Assembly (NCBI RefSeq): GCF_023115425.1
Contig: NZ_CP096032.1
Coordinates: 2,108,001-2,172,000 of the forward strand
Reading direction: 5' to 3'
Length of the DNA: 64,000 nt
Source: Synechococcus sp. A10-1-5-1
GTDB lineage: Bacteria; Cyanobacteriota; Cyanobacteriia; PCC-6307; Cyanobiaceae
The notes beneath the pieces were generated by a model that worked only from the letters and a program-made list of their open reading frames with translations, had not been told where the DNA came from and searched no databases. Shown here piece by piece: positions 7,782 to 11,851 of this stretch (position 1 is the first letter of the stretch; each line of letters opens with the position of its first letter). Both the position numbers and the translations under genes were made by a program.

Positions 7782-8390
7782 TCAGCCCTTGATCTCGAGC
7801 AGTTCCACCTCAAAGATCAAGGTGGCGTTTGGGGGGATCACGCCACCGGCACCCCGCTCGCCATAGGCCAGATCGGGGGGGATGACGAGCTTGCGCTTGC
7901 CGCCCACCTGCATTCCGGCGACGCCTTCATCCCAGCCCTTGATGACGCGACCGGCGCCCAGGGGGAAGCTGAAGGGGCCGCGGCCGTAGCTGCTGTCGAA
8001 CTCCTTGCCGCTCTCGAGGGTGCCGCGGTAGTTCACCACCACGAGCTGACCTGAGGTGGCCTCAGGGCCGTCACCGATGACCAGGTCGGTGATGCGCAGA
8101 CCGCTGGGGGTCATCCGTTCTTTGGCCGCAACCATTTCTCCTCCGAGGGCAGACGCCCCACTGTCGGCGATGACGTCGCTGGCCATGGTGAAGAGGCTGG
8201 GGTTGGGGTCCTCGGGATCGAGCTCGATCTGGCCGCTGAAGCTGGCTGGGGCTGGGGCGCTCGCCACCGCCTGTTGCATGGCTGGCTGGCTGGGGGCTGC
8301 GTTGACGGTGGAGGGCGCCACGATCTGGCTGACCAGTGCCAGCAAGAGGCAGCCCACGCAGACGGCTGAGCTGATCAGGATGTCCCGCAT
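7782..8390 (-). CDS. FKBP-type peptidyl-prolyl cis-trans isomerase, membrane-anchored or exported
   Basis: The 202-aa product begins with a hydrophobic signal or anchor segment (about residues 5-30). An Ala/Ser/Pro-rich spacer follows, then an FKBP domain from about residue 95 ([69 protein letters not shown]). FKBPs catalyse Xaa-Pro isomerisation during folding; the N terminus places this one in the periplasm or thylakoid lumen. It is encoded alone on the minus strand between sodB and the phasin-like gene, with 123 bp separating it from sodB. The domain call is firm; export versus anchoring is open. Confidence 0.93.
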
Positions 8391-8437: not shown

Positions 8438-8779
8438 TCAGTCCGGGATCTCCAGTTGGGATTGCTTCTGCCGAAGCTGTTGTTCCAGCCGATCGATGCG
8501 CCCCCGCAGTTCATCCACTTCCCGTTGCCGGGCGAGGCCCAGGTCCTGCAACAGGTGATCGAGGTTTCGCTCCACCTGGCGTTCGGTCTGTTTTTCCAGC
8601 TCGGGGTTCTCCCCGCGCAGGCTGGCGAGAACGTCATCGACCAAGGCGCTGGCCTGGTTTGGATCGAGTCGCCCACTGCTGACCCAGGCCTGGGTGACGC
8701 CCCGCAGGCGCTCGGCCACAAGGGAGGTGGTGCCAAGGCCTCGGAAGAGCAGTTGCTGAAGGGTTCGGCTGGGATCCAT
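8438..8779 (-). CDS. Phasin-family-like helical protein
   Basis: The 113-aa product is almost entirely helical and charged. An N-terminal part (LQQLLFRGLGTTSLVAERLR, then SGRLDPNQASALVDDVLASL) is followed by a coiled coil at about residues 60-113 (HLLQDLGLARQREVDELRGR and beyond). This resembles the phasin-related or polyhydroxyalkanoate-regulator-like small proteins common in cyanobacteria; no PHA synthase is present in this window, so a granule role is not implied. The ATG giving MDPSRTL is preferred; another ATG ten codons upstream (8809) would add MVQSAHPCGF. The gene diverges from lnt. Confidence 0.75.
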   Translation of the reverse strand: MDPSRTLQQLLFRGLGTTSLVAERLRGVTQAWVSSGRLDPNQASALVDDVLASLRGENPELEKQTERQVERNLDHLLQDLGLARQREVDELRGRIDRLEQQLRQKQSQLEIPD

Positions 8780-8826
8780 GAACCCGCAGGGGTGCGCTGA
8801 TTGCACCATGACGCTCTTTAGGGTCA

Positions 8827-10293
8827 GTGGCCATGGCAGAGAACCGGCGACTGGTCTGGATTGGTGCCCTGCTGGGCGGCCTGCTCGCAGGTGTGGCTCT
8901 GCCGCCACTGGGTTGTCCTCCTCTGCTTTGGATTGCCCTGCTGCCGCAGTGGGGTTTTGGTCCCGGGCCGGCGGCCCTCTGGGCCGGAACCGCTGTATTG
9001 CTGAGCCATCGCTGGCTGCTTTGGCTGCACCCGCTGGATTGGGTCGGGGTGCCCCTGCCCTTGAGCCTGCCGCTCTGTGTCCTGCTCTGGCTGCTTCTGG
9101 GTTTGCTTGGTGCGGGGCTGGTGGCGCTCTGGCGAGCCCTGGTGGGACGGTTGGGGCCCGGCCGTTGGTCAGTGGCCCTCCTGGCCTCGGCTCTGTGGGG
9201 GTTGGGCGAGGTCTGGATGGCCAAAGGACCCCTGTTTTGGCTGGGGCTGGGGTCGGTGGTCCTGCCTGGTGATCGCGCCCTGGCGGGCTTGGCCCAGTGG
9301 GTTGGGGCCGGGGGATTGGCGGCGTTGCAGTTGCTTCTCGCCTGGGGGCTTTGGCGCTTATTGCTGGCTTGGTGGGATGGGCGCCGCGGTCTCTGGCGCG
9401 GCGGGTTGACCTGGCTGTTGGCGGTCGCCCTGCTGCATGGCCTGGGCTGGCAGTTGCTGCAGCGCAGCTCCCTTCCAGACCCTGAGGCCCCGTGGCTGTC
9501 GGCGTTGGTGCTTCAGCCCGATATCCCCACCCGGGAGAAGTTCAGTTGGACTCAGCAGCGAGCCCTGGAGCGGCGGCTGCGGGAGGCCCAGGCGGAAGCG
9601 GAAGCCCAGGGCGCCGACCTTTTGGTGCTGCCGGAGGGGGCTTTGGCCTTGGGGCAAGGCCTTCCTGCTCCAGGGGCTGTGGAGGTGCTGAGCGGCGGCT
9701 TCCGCCAGGAGGAGATCGAGCTGCGCAGCAGTGTTCTGCTCTTTCCCCCTCAGGCGCAGGAAGCCGAGGGAGCCATCGACAAGCATCGCTTGGTTCCGCT
9801 TGGGGAATGGGTTCCCGGCGGTGCCCTGTGGCGTTGGGCTGGGTTGTCGGCGGTCGGTGGGGTGGAGCCGGGGCCGGCCTCGCGCCTGCTGCAGCGCCCT
9901 CAGGGTGATGTGGCTGTCGCCATTTGCTACGAGATTGCTGATGGTGCGGGCTTGATCGGTGCCAGTCGGGCTGGGGCTGGCTGGATCTTGGCCAGCGCCA
10001 ATCTCGACCCCTATCCCCTGCTGTTGCAGCAGCAGTTTCAGGCCCTATCGCAATTGCGGGCCATCGAGGCCAGTCGCTGGCTCGTGAGTTCCGCCAACAC
10101 GGGGCCGAGCCTGGTGGTGCGGCCTGATGGAGCCCTAGGACAGGCCCTGCCGCCAATGCATGCAGGGATGCTGTTGGTGCGGTTTCAGGTCAGGTCAAAC
10201 CAGACTCCCTATGGCCGCTGGGGGGAATGGCCACTGCTACTGACGGTCGGCGCCGGGCTCGCCGCAAGTCGGTCTCGCGTGAGACAATCTTGA
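8827..10293 (+). CDS. lnt: Apolipoprotein N-acyltransferase
   Basis: Lnt adds the third acyl chain to the N-terminal cysteine of lipoproteins at the plasma membrane. The 488-aa product has about seven hydrophobic segments in the first 215 residues, then a periplasmic nitrilase-like domain. The catalytic triad is visible as Glu270 (LPEGALAL), Lys319 (DKHRLVPLGEWVP) and Cys367 (VAICYEIADG), and a final hydrophobic helix follows. The start is GTG at 8827, or ATG two codons later. It diverges from the phasin-like gene. The next gene, for a secreted HExxH protein, starts 19 bp after its stop and may be cotranscribed. Confidence 0.94.
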   Translation: MAMAENRRLVWIGALLGGLLAGVALPPLGCPPLLWIALLPQWGFGPGPAALWAGTAVLLSHRWLLWLHPLDWVGVPLPLSLPLCVLLWLLLGLLGAGLVALWRALVGRLGPGRWSVALLASALWGLGEVWMAKGPLFWLGLGSVVLPGDRALAGLAQWVGAGGLAALQLLLAWGLWRLLLAWWDGRRGLWRGGLTWLLAVALLHGLGWQLLQRSSLPDPEAPWLSALVLQPDIPTREKFSWTQQRALERRLREAQAEAEAQGADLLVLPEGALALGQGLPAPGAVEVLSGGFRQEEIELRSSVLLFPPQAQEAEGAIDKHRLVPLGEWVPGGALWRWAGLSAVGGVEPGPASRLLQRPQGDVAVAICYEIADGAGLIGASRAGAGWILASANLDPYPLLLQQQFQALSQLRAIEASRWLVSSANTGPSLVVRPDGALGQALPPMHAGMLLVRFQVRSNQTPYGRWGEWPLLLTVGAGLAASRSRVRQS

Positions 10294-10312
10294 GACTTGC
10301 TTAAGGCGCCTT

Positions 10313-10843
10313 TTGGTTTCCTTCCGCTCTGGTCTTCTTGGTCTGGGCTTGGCGGCCGCCTCCGTGCTGCCGTCTCTGCCTGTGCGGGCCACTGATCAGG
10401 GGGATGCGGCGCTGGAGGCCGTCGTTGCACTTGGGGTGGTCGTGATTCGCCGGGCTGAGTGCGGTGGGCCGCGTCAGCTCGCGACTTACAACATGGGAGC
10501 CAACGTTCTCTGCCTGTCCCACTCCCTCGACCGTGACCCACTGAAACGGGCCAAGGTGATTCAGCACGAATTAGTGCATGTGGTGCAGGACTGCCTCGAT
10601 GGGCTGGAGACCCCGACCTCGCTGACCTTGGCGGAGGGGCTGCGCTCCAGTGGGCAGCTGAGTGGCGAGCAGGTCAATGGCTTTTTTCTGCACCACCTGC
10701 GCAAGCAGGGCAACTTGGACCATGTGGTGGCCTCAACGGCCCAGCTCCCCTTCGAGAGTCGGCAGCGTGAGTTTGAGGCCTACGCGCTACAGGCCGATCC
10801 GCCGATGGTGGCGCATTTATTAAAAGCGACCTGCAGGCTCTAA
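10313..10843 (+). CDS. Secreted HExxH-motif protein, paralog 1
   Basis: I do not recognise a named family. The 176-aa product has a signal peptide (hydrophobic to about residue 22, then VRATDQG). Conserved features are Cys50, Cys67 and the zinc-protease-like motif IQHELVHVVQDC (His85, Glu86, His89, Gln92, Cys94), with a final Cys174. The neighbour at 11354-11851 shares the same order of cysteines, an LxxDP segment before the motif, and HExxHVxQxC itself, so they are paralogs. A Zn-dependent peptidase fold stabilised by disulfides is plausible, but no third metal ligand is obvious. The start is TTG with AAGG about 8 nt upstream. It follows lnt by 19 bp. Confidence 0.72.
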   Translation: MVSFRSGLLGLGLAAASVLPSLPVRATDQGDAALEAVVALGVVVIRRAECGGPRQLATYNMGANVLCLSHSLDRDPLKRAKVIQHELVHVVQDCLDGLETPTSLTLAEGLRSSGQLSGEQVNGFFLHHLRKQGNLDHVVASTAQLPFESRQREFEAYALQADPPMVAHLLKATCRL

Positions 10844-10995
10844 TACGTTGCGCTGCGAAGGGTTTTAGAGAGACCTTCTCATCGCCTTTGCTGCGGCAAT
10901 GTGTTGGATTGTGATGCTCCTGTTCTAGGTATTCAGCCGCAGGTTGTTGTGCCTAATTCGCGAAAAGTGTGGCATTTATACCTGGAAGAAAAGGG

Positions 10996-11208
10996 GTGAC
11001 CAGGGCTAGGACGAATGGAGTTACCGCTGTTGCTGTGACCGCTTATCCCTGTTGCGCAGCCTGTAAGAACTTCATCATCGCTGGCGGCATGGGGGTCTGC
11101 CGCTGTTGGCGGATGACGATGAGCTTGAAAGAAGCCGAAGTGCAGGTGAGCTGTCCGTATTGGGTGCGAGCCGTGGCGGTGGAAGATCCGTACGAGGCCT
11201 TGGATTGA
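10996..11208 (+). CDS. Small six-cysteine protein, possible zinc binder
   Basis: This 70-codon ORF encodes a Cys-rich protein with Cys19, 20, 23, 35, 37 and 53 arranged as CCxxC, CxC and C (segments AYPCCAACKNF, GVCRCWRM, VSCPYWV). The spacing suggests a metal site or disulfide cluster. The GTG start at 10996 overlaps, as GTGA, the stop of a 32-codon ORF beginning at 10901, and GGAAG lies about 10 nt upstream; a GTG nine codons earlier (10969) is the alternative. It lies between two paralogous secreted HExxH genes on the same strand. No homology is claimed, and the gene call itself is moderate. Confidence 0.48.
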   Translation: MTRARTNGVTAVAVTAYPCCAACKNFIIAGGMGVCRCWRMTMSLKEAEVQVSCPYWVRAVAVEDPYEALD

Positions 11209-11353
11209 GTGCTGCCCTCCACCCTGGGGTCGCCGGCCTGCACCTGAGACAGCGCTTGCTGGCTCAGGGCTGAAAACCGGAGAGATTTGGCTGGAAGAAC
11301 GCCCCTGTTCCTCGGTCTGGGTCCAATGAGACCGGAGATGAGAGTGGCGGGGT

Positions 11354-11851
11354 TTGCGGTTTTTCGGGTCGAGTCGTTGGTTGGCCTTCGCGGTTGTGCT
11401 GCTGGGGCTTGGCATGCAGGCTTCGCCGGTCTGGGCTGAGCGGCTGAAGTCGATTTTCCTGCTCCGGGGGCTCTTGCTCCGGGCTGGAACGGAGACCTTG
11501 GTGGCGAGAGATTGTCCTCAGCAATTGATGGGCGCCTTTGTCTTTGCTCGCAATGCGGTGGTGTTGTGTGCCAATAACCTCAAGGACGACCCGGAGCGTG
11601 TCTGGGAGACCTTGGCCCATGAATCCGCCCATGTGATGCAGCACTGCCGGCGTGAACCCATCTTTGAAAGCGATCGCTTGGGCCTGGATTTTCTGGTGGC
11701 CCATCGCCGCTCACCGGATTTGTTCAAGGCCGTTGGTCAGTACCACCCGAGTCAGCACCGCAGCGAAATCGAGGCGCGGATTGTTCAAGGCTTGCCGGCA
11801 GAGGAGGTGATGAATCTCTTCCGCCGCGCCTGCGCGGATCGCTTGCTTTAG
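11354..11851 (+). CDS. Secreted HExxH-motif protein, paralog 2
   Basis: The 165-aa product has a clear signal peptide (hydrophobic residues 9-24, cleavage probably after SPVWA). It shares with the protein at 10313-10843 the pattern Cys54, Cys72, an LKDDPERVW segment, and LAHESAHVMQHC (His89, Glu90, His93, Gln96, Cys98), with a late Cys160. HExxH is typical of zincin peptidases, but the rest is not a family I know, so catalytic activity is unproven. The start is TTG at 11354; there is no ATG near. It converges with selO, whose stop is 7 bp away. Confidence 0.72.
   Translation: MRFFGSSRWLAFAVVLLGLGMQASPVWAERLKSIFLLRGLLLRAGTETLVARDCPQQLMGAFVFARNAVVLCANNLKDDPERVWETLAHESAHVMQHCRREPIFESDRLGLDFLVAHRRSPDLFKAVGQYHPSQHRSEIEARIVQGLPAEEVMNLFRRACADRLL

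Follow-up and report, generated by a model that had tools for sequence, protein, structure and literature searches.

The stretch analyzed here, referred to as the window, comprises 64,000 nucleotides of the genome of Synechococcus sp. A10-1-5-1 (NZ_CP096032.1, positions 2,108,001 to 2,172,000, forward strand), and its positions 10313 to 11851 carry two open reading frames (ORFs), P1 and P2, for small proteins with an HExxH motif and four conserved cysteines. An original prediction, made from the letters alone, had described them as a tandem pair of secreted proteins and possibly a new zincin-like family; both ORFs are found where it had placed them, and the observation as a whole could be confirmed. 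We favor, with moderate confidence and with the roles proposed below included, the explanation that P1 and P2 are paralogs in an exported gluzincin peptidase family common to picocyanobacteria and Synechococcus phages. The features of both genes are as follows, with positions referring to the window:

10313..10843, plus strand: P1, predicted secreted zincin-like protein of 176 amino acids, TTG start, stop codon included (ORF, orthologs, model and ratio of nonsynonymous to synonymous substitutions, dN/dS)
10313..10390, plus strand: signal-peptide-like N-terminus of P1, ending ..PVRA (hydropathy; cleavage site by inspection)
10565..10579, plus strand: HExxH of P1 (H85-H89), invariant in 17 of 17 alignment rows
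10769..10780, plus strand: ExEA of P1 (E153-A156), candidate for the third zinc ligand, conserved without exception in 17 of 17 rows and located in model helix 147-159
10460..10834, plus strand: four conserved Cys of P1 (codons at 10460, 10511, 10592 and 10832), three invariant and the fourth present in 90% of rows or more
11354..11851, plus strand: P2, predicted secreted zincin-like protein of 165 amino acids, TTG start, stop codon included (ORF, alignment, model and dN/dS)
11354..11437, plus strand: signal-peptide-like N-terminus of P2, ending ..PVWA (hydropathy; cleavage site by inspection)
11618..11632, plus strand: HExxH of P2 (H89-H93), invariant in 72 of 72 rows, 71 of which were fetched by a pattern containing HExxH
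11765..11776, plus strand: ExEA of P2 (E138-A141), candidate for the third zinc ligand, conserved without exception in 72 of 72 rows, outside the fetching pattern and located in model helix 132-145
11513..11833, plus strand: four conserved Cys of P2 (C54, C72, C98 and C160; codons at 11513, 11567, 11645 and 11831), invariant in 72 of 72 rows

The motif order that had been recognized, consisting of two Cys, LxxDP, HExxHVxQxC and a last Cys, is present in both proteins, with C50, C67, LDRDP (72-76), HELVHVVQDC (85-94) and C174 in P1 and C54, C72, LKDDP (76-80), HESAHVMQHC (89-98) and C160 in P2. The spacing, which was claimed to agree within one residue, does so from the first to the second Cys (17 and 18 residues in P1 and P2, respectively), from the second Cys to the first His (18 and 17) and from the first His to the third Cys (9 in both), but not from the third to the fourth Cys (80 vs 62). 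The LxxDP element occurs in P1 and P2 but is no feature of the family, as P1 orthologs carry LQARP, LSRRS and the like. In line with the predicted signal peptides, both N-termini combine positive charge with a subsequent hydrophobic run in the hydropathy analysis, and the ends ..PVRA and ..PVWA look like signal-peptidase sites by inspection. A close P2 ortholog in the genome G021 starts with ATG, compared with TTG for P1 and P2.

The assumption that both proteins share little else understates their similarity. BLASTP aligned P1 and P2 with 31% identity over 101 amino acids (E 8e-6), a profile-profile comparison of the two families gave a probability of 98.6 and an E-value of 6.3e-16 with Cys aligned to Cys and ExEA to ExEA, and the ExEA motif itself, which had been overlooked, is present in both. 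By these comparisons the P1 and P2 families are homologous. The dN/dS values of 0.107-0.123 for P1 against the three nearest genomes and of 0.130 for P2 against one nearest genome identify both as genuine genes under purifying selection; a frame change disrupts the copy of P2 in one close genome (G013).

Conservation is concentrated on a putative zinc site. An alignment of 30 rows, containing P1-type and P2-type proteins as well as more distant paralogs, has seven invariant columns, which are the H, E, H and Q of HExxHxxQ and the E, E and A of ExEA. For the P2 type, a pattern with LxHExxHxxQ but without ExEA retrieved 74 loci from named genomes, three of which were left out due to undetermined bases or a missing motif. 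ExEA was present in all 71 readable proteins, and in their alignment together with P2 (72 rows) 13 columns are invariant, among them those of the four Cys and of Tyr130.

The predicted structures (AlphaFold2; predicted local distance difference test, pLDDT, of 90.2 and predicted template modeling score, pTM, of 0.82 for P2; 85.3 and 0.78 for P1) place HExxH within one long helix (residues 80-99 in P2 and 76-96 in P1) and ExEA in a later one (132-145 and 147-159, respectively). For both models the best solved fold is Deinococcus IrrE/PprI, with a Z-score of 8.9, a root-mean-square deviation of 3.8 and 18% identity over 94 aligned residues for P2, and 7.8, 3.6 and 12% over 94 residues for P1. 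A mycobacterial regulator comes next, together with further zincins, for example ArdC (Z 7.4 for P2), and P2 also matches 6mdw (Z 6.4), which we take to be a DNA-protein crosslink (DPC) repair protease of the SprT type. Many toxin chains, lethal factor and its relatives, also appear in the PDB fold lists of both models with Z near 6; these are zincins with larger domains. As fold matches and motifs come together, we regard the zincin assignment as firm, and these models make the expected zincin-like fold of P1 and P2 very probable. The third zinc ligand, which the original prediction had proposed to look for, has a conserved candidate in ExEA, whose assignment as the third ligand motif of the Glu-zincin subclan is well supported at the level of the pattern. 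In the M48 pattern the ligand is the Glu that precedes Ala by three residues, and because of this analogy the first Glu of ExEA (E153 in P1, E138 in P2) is most likely the one that would bind zinc.

No named family of Pfam or NCBIfam covers P1 or P2 above its cut-off, as had been expected. The best Pfam match of P2 is Peptidase_M76 (Atp23, PF09768) with an E-value of 7.9e-5, whereas for P1 there is no M76 match and nothing in Pfam better than E 0.084. At E 0.01, 31 of the 72 P2-type proteins match M76, more than any other family, and of 244 genomes of the phylum searched with M76, nine had a match, one of them at the cut-off (G262, 25.2 bits). It is therefore worth considering whether P2-type proteins are true bacterial members of M76, which would give the protease of the mitochondrial intermembrane space relatives in the cyanobacterial periplasm; both share a core around HExxH with flanking Cys and a compartment beyond the inner membrane. 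The P2 score of 22.9 bits is nevertheless below the curated cut-off of 25.2, and the alignment is confined to residues 46-101 (56 of 165 residues) and to profile positions 33-86 of 170. In addition, the distance from HExxH to the third ligand motif is presumably longer in the P2 type than in Atp23. P2 has four Cys, in comparison with ten in yeast Atp23 (PMC4951193). A bacterial relative would be news, since M76 is listed in 21 eukaryotic phyla and in none of Bacteria or Archaea in Table 2 of PMC3890501. By its sequence P2 is M76-like, although outside M76 by the curated cut-off, and we consider true membership unlikely. A genuine likeness would have implications for where mitochondrial Atp23 comes from.

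The other known systems are more distant. IrrE/PprI, which belongs to the peptidase family M78, is a zincin as well and the closest solved fold, but the identity in the fold alignments is low and the Pfam cut-off is missed (PF06114; P2 with 12.8 bits and E 0.11 vs a cut-off of 22, no P1 match listed); moreover, IrrE is a cytosolic protein with further domains. The zincins of the ArdC and SprT/Spartan type, which appear among the further fold matches of P2, are cytosolic, linked to nucleic acids and not known to have the Cys4 pattern. DUF6782 (PF20573, putative metallopeptidase) shows a weak similarity in the HExxH region (9 of 72 P2-type proteins at E 0.01, best 1.9e-4), but P1 (E 0.084) and P2 (E 0.18) are far below its 27-bit cut-off. 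The Pfam families eCIS core, DUF6782, SprT and M78 are all far below their cut-offs for P1 and P2. The NCBIfam name 'Hvo_1808 family' was rejected: it matches 34 of 72 P2-type proteins, but when scanned singly only two of five members, with 17 and 21.9 bits vs a cut-off of 200 and in the HExxH region only, and NCBIfam offered no name for P1 or P2. The family is new in the sense that it has no Pfam or NCBIfam name, but its sequences are already collected in PHROG 16003 (unknown function), which matches all 30 host proteins scanned (P1 at E 2.6e-6, best 1.2e-15) and is probably the phage side of the P1/P2 family. A literature search, with most subscription journals outside its reach, found no description of the family. 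The available text of a metagenome study that used HExxH to mine 257 clusters of ORFan metalloproteases does not name it among them (PMC4508852), and the proteases named in the available text on Synechococcus exoproteomes are others (PMC4949707).

Among cyanobacteria, the two types differ in their distribution. P1 matches with an E-value below 1e-30 occur in 17 of 99 genomes, 16 from its own genus group (including its own genome) and G028, and P2 matches at E 0.01 in 23 of 99, mainly as more distant paralogs. In the larger set of the class, the P2 profile matches 110 of 388 genomes and 32 of 156 genera; named hosts of the P2 type are Synechococcus, Cyanobium and Prochlorococcus and, more distantly, Crocosphaera, Cyanothece and a 'unicellular cyanobacterium', and a search of plasmids yielded no P2 match. 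The P1 type is narrow: matches of its profile A1 in 36 of these 388 genomes include many P2-type proteins, and only 11 are below 1e-30. The tandem arrangement is present here, but is limited to a few close genomes. The genome of A10-1-5-1 (G000) also contains a larger paralog of 250 amino acids with HExxH, EEEA and few Cys (G000:C1:505317-505736; L219 4812-5564, minus strand).

To get a view of the viral side, we compared P2, S-CBP42 gp40, Syn5 gp14, S-CREM2 gp108, a member from a viral contig and the DSL-LC02 protein with 50,697 phage records using tblastn. This analysis matched 23 different named phages, all of them Synechococcus phages: the T7-like phages S-CBP42, P60, Syn5 and S-TIP28, and furthermore S-CREM2, S-H34, MA01, MA10, ME01, MC09, S-N03, S-B68, S-B05, RN05-S, RB11-B, S-B43, S-CAM7, S-CRES1, S-CRES2, S-CRES3, DSL-LC02, S-SRM01 and SynMITS9220M01; none of the matched records names Prochlorococcus as host. 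Of the 23 phage proteins, 15 were read; each of them contains HExxH, ExEA and the four Cys, and a signal-peptide-like N-terminus was recognized in 13. In an alignment of 15 rows (A6; P1, P2, two proteins of Synechococcus WH7803 and 11 viral proteins) the invariant columns are, in P2 numbering, exactly C54, C72, H89, E90, H93, C98, E138, E140, A141 and C160. Among the profile comparisons, that of A5 with A1 (E 7.7e-8) is the clean test; that of A6 with A1 (E 1.1e-26) was set aside, since A6 contains P1. Independent of the sequence search, the top match of the P2 model among predicted viral structures was S-CBP42 (E 3.0e-7), and Syn5 gp14 ranked third (E 4.4e-5); six matches reached E 0.001 or better, and all four named ones among these are Synechococcus phages. 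In uncultured viral contigs we found 46 loci, all with HExxH and at least four Cys and 43 with ExEA. The P1 type was detected neither in the phage records by tblastn nor in the viral contigs.

The position of the phage gene is conserved as well. In all four T7-like phages an RNA polymerase gene lies downstream of the zincin gene, directly in P60 and Syn5 and with one small gene in between in S-CBP42 and S-TIP28, and in P60, Syn5 and S-TIP28 the zincin gene lies no further than 4.2 kb from the start of the record. In T7 the counterpart of this genome position is the early region, and by analogy the zincin gene of T7-like cyanophages would be part of the early region too. The main text of the S-CBP42 paper does not contain the word 'peptidase' (PMC4646655), and SprT-like, ArdC-like and other zincins have been described in jumbo phages (PMC7824862). 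A quick tree of host and phage proteins needs five host/phage changes, four of them forced by starred branches. We do not count these four as four transfers, because the tree (95 of 123 rows after thinning) is based on few columns with long branches and includes a doubtful host label (L128). This copy (L128 2018-2500), on a contig of a 'Rhodobacteraceae' bin, shares 84% identity with the copy on a viral contig, and the L128 contig is probably a misbinned cyanophage. Some further observations concern the phage loci: a gene for an S-type phycobiliprotein lyase is located at a distance of up to about 1.5 kb from the zincin gene in S-CREM2, S-CRES1 and S-CRES3 (L288 5207-5659, L292 2905-3255 and L297 1742-2173), two of the uncultured viral contigs that carry a secreted zincin (L233 11066-11398 and L234 8359-8703) also encode a secreted RlpA-like protein (named by eye), L234 has a psbA-like gene too, and the DSL-LC02 zincin (WJZ48381.1, L290 3968-4375) carries the annotation serine hydroxymethyltransferase, which is probably wrong.

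Some T4-like phages and many small-genome picocyanobacteria contain a form of about 128-155 amino acids, which has no signal peptide and starts with MEFLxYL or similar. This branch is homologous to the P2 type (profile comparison, E 1.6e-18). In 14 of 15 picocyanobacterial genomes, hand-picked from the 110 genomes matching the P2 profile, its gene is located directly downstream of umuD-umuC, for example at L220 2734-3198 on the minus strand (G054 is the exception), and in 11 of them the distance to the aligned end of umuC is 15 bases or less. Six more loci outside the 15 (L312-L317) represent another gene group without umuC, and five of these hold the form with a signal peptide. In the phages DSL-LC02 and SynMITS9220M01 the signal-peptide-less gene lies beside or near the sliding clamp gene or denV. 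This gene order raises the question whether the family is primarily a regulator of DNA damage or phage conflict like IrrE/PprI and ImmA, with the secreted forms as a side branch. The closest solved folds of P1 and P2 and the LexA boxes reported upstream of umuC and umuD in Prochlorococcus (PMC2921402) are in line with this idea. Contrary to these published predictions, however, we found no LexA-like box in the 15 umuDC-zincin loci with our own patterns. Moreover, P1, P2 and 13 of the 15 phage proteins look exported and would be out of reach of a cytosolic repressor, and the members read are by inspection single small domains without a DNA-binding part. We therefore consider a primarily regulatory family quite improbable. 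It is possible that the umuDC-linked zincin gene is a third SOS gene; the available text of two papers treats umuDC without mention of a zincin (PMC3744912, PMC3091678).

In the explanation we favor, that of an exported peptidase family, P1 and P2 would each be exported by their signal peptide. The mature domain would consist of a three-stranded sheet packed on the HExxH helix and a subsequent helix with ExEA, and zinc would be bound between the two helices by the two His and most likely the first Glu of ExEA, with the Glu of HExxH as general base. The four Cys would most likely form two disulfides, which stabilize the fold in the oxidizing periplasm. The host enzymes would probably perform limited proteolysis of envelope or periplasmic proteins, whereas the phage copies would probably act in the periplasm of the infected cell early in infection, because their gene precedes that of the RNA polymerase and the proteins look exported. 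That the proteins are active peptidases seems a reasonable prediction. Alternatively, they could be zincin-fold scaffolds without peptidase activity, which serve as binding proteins or chaperones and use the four Cys for a structural metal or disulfides. No activity is known for the family, the four Cys are as strictly conserved as the zinc site and Atp23 itself has been described as a chaperone, too (PMC8847149). Nevertheless, both His, both Glu of ExEA and the Glu of HExxH are invariant across the aligned hosts and phages, which is unexpected if catalysis were dispensable, and we regard such scaffolds as an improbable alternative to peptidases.

Several points have to be held against the exported peptidase. 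With regard to the fold, Foldseek returned no PDB chain at E 0.001 for either model, Z-scores of 7.8-8.9 are close to the range in which a shared arrangement alone may be reflected, and a search of the sequences of solved structures with both family profiles gave only chance matches and no solved sequence relative; one match at E 0.023 was rejected, as its alignment does not include HExxH. With regard to the active site, Tyr130 is invariant in the P2 type and absent from P1, therefore P1 and P2 may differ in their full catalytic set, and three of the 46 members from viral contigs have D-R-E-A instead of ExEA, with Asp in the first position, so that either Glu may be the ligand. With regard to the disulfides, the last two Cys are missing from L031 and the first two from L029 and L054, three of the distant paralogs in the 30-row alignment, and the signal-peptide-less branch retains all four Cys, which fits poorly with a purely disulfide role.

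A hypothetical protease pair alone would be of modest interest, and it is the presence in phages and the umuDC-linked branch that raise it. The analysis provides a predicted fold, a probable active site and a testable activity for a family of hypothetical proteins in 110 of 388 genomes of the class and in 23 named Synechococcus phages including the model phages Syn5 and P60. A secreted candidate protease encoded before the phage RNA polymerase gene would offer a new handle on how T7-like cyanophages treat the host envelope. In some of the most abundant phototrophs of the ocean, the SOS mutagenesis operon would gain a third gene through the umuDC-linked branch. The family may thus take part in the contest between picocyanobacteria and their viruses. 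Extending this, one could speculate about an undescribed zincin family on both sides of a cyanophage arms race. T7-like Synechococcus phages would export an early zincin to cut an envelope protein, which might be a receptor, a periplasmic sensor or the substrate of the host zincin, for superinfection exclusion or takeover; the hosts would keep several secreted paralogs, P1 and P2 among them, to act on the same substrates; and the signal-peptide-less form in the Prochlorococcus umuDC operon would be a third SOS gene that regulates DNA polymerase V (Pol V) or a repressor by proteolysis. Taken jointly, we hold these three parts to be a doubtful proposition.

The surroundings of P1 and P2 contain two further genes of note:

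8827..10293, plus strand: lnt-like gene (carbon-nitrogen hydrolase, apolipoprotein N-acyltransferase type; Pfam), the usual upstream neighbor of P1
10969..11208, plus strand: small Cys-containing ORF of 79 amino acids between P1 and P2, conserved in close genomes

The lnt-like gene is located directly upstream of P1 in 16 of 17 P1 loci; it was not found next to the P1-type gene in G028 (13-kb stretch) or in G276, G462 and G535 (8.5- to 9-kb stretches). The 79-amino-acid ORF lies within the 510 bases that separate P1 and P2. Three close genomes have it with 80-88% identity, and in G012 the identity is 66% over 67 amino acids; there it sits behind P1 although no P2 was found in the 13-kb stretch (L059). 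This conservation, including a genome without P2 in the stretch read, indicates that it is probably a third gene of the locus; it matches no Pfam family above cut-off. Ahead of P1, the stretch GTGCGACAATCTTGAGACTTTCTTGAGA (window variant ..CTTGAGACTTGCTTAAGG..; 10279-10305, plus strand) spans the lnt stop codon and the P1 lead-in and is nearly identical in 16 of 16 genomes of the genus, far above its flanks. No sigma-70-type promoter was found in this region, and the element resembles a promoter or a direct-repeat operator with an 11-base period. In G187, a genome of a distant family, a zincin gene lies near FKBP-like and phasin-like genes (L226 2780-6275; named by eye), which resemble the genes at 7782-8390 and 8438-8908 of the window adjoining lnt-P1, and this arrangement is possibly an old synteny with the lnt-P1 region.

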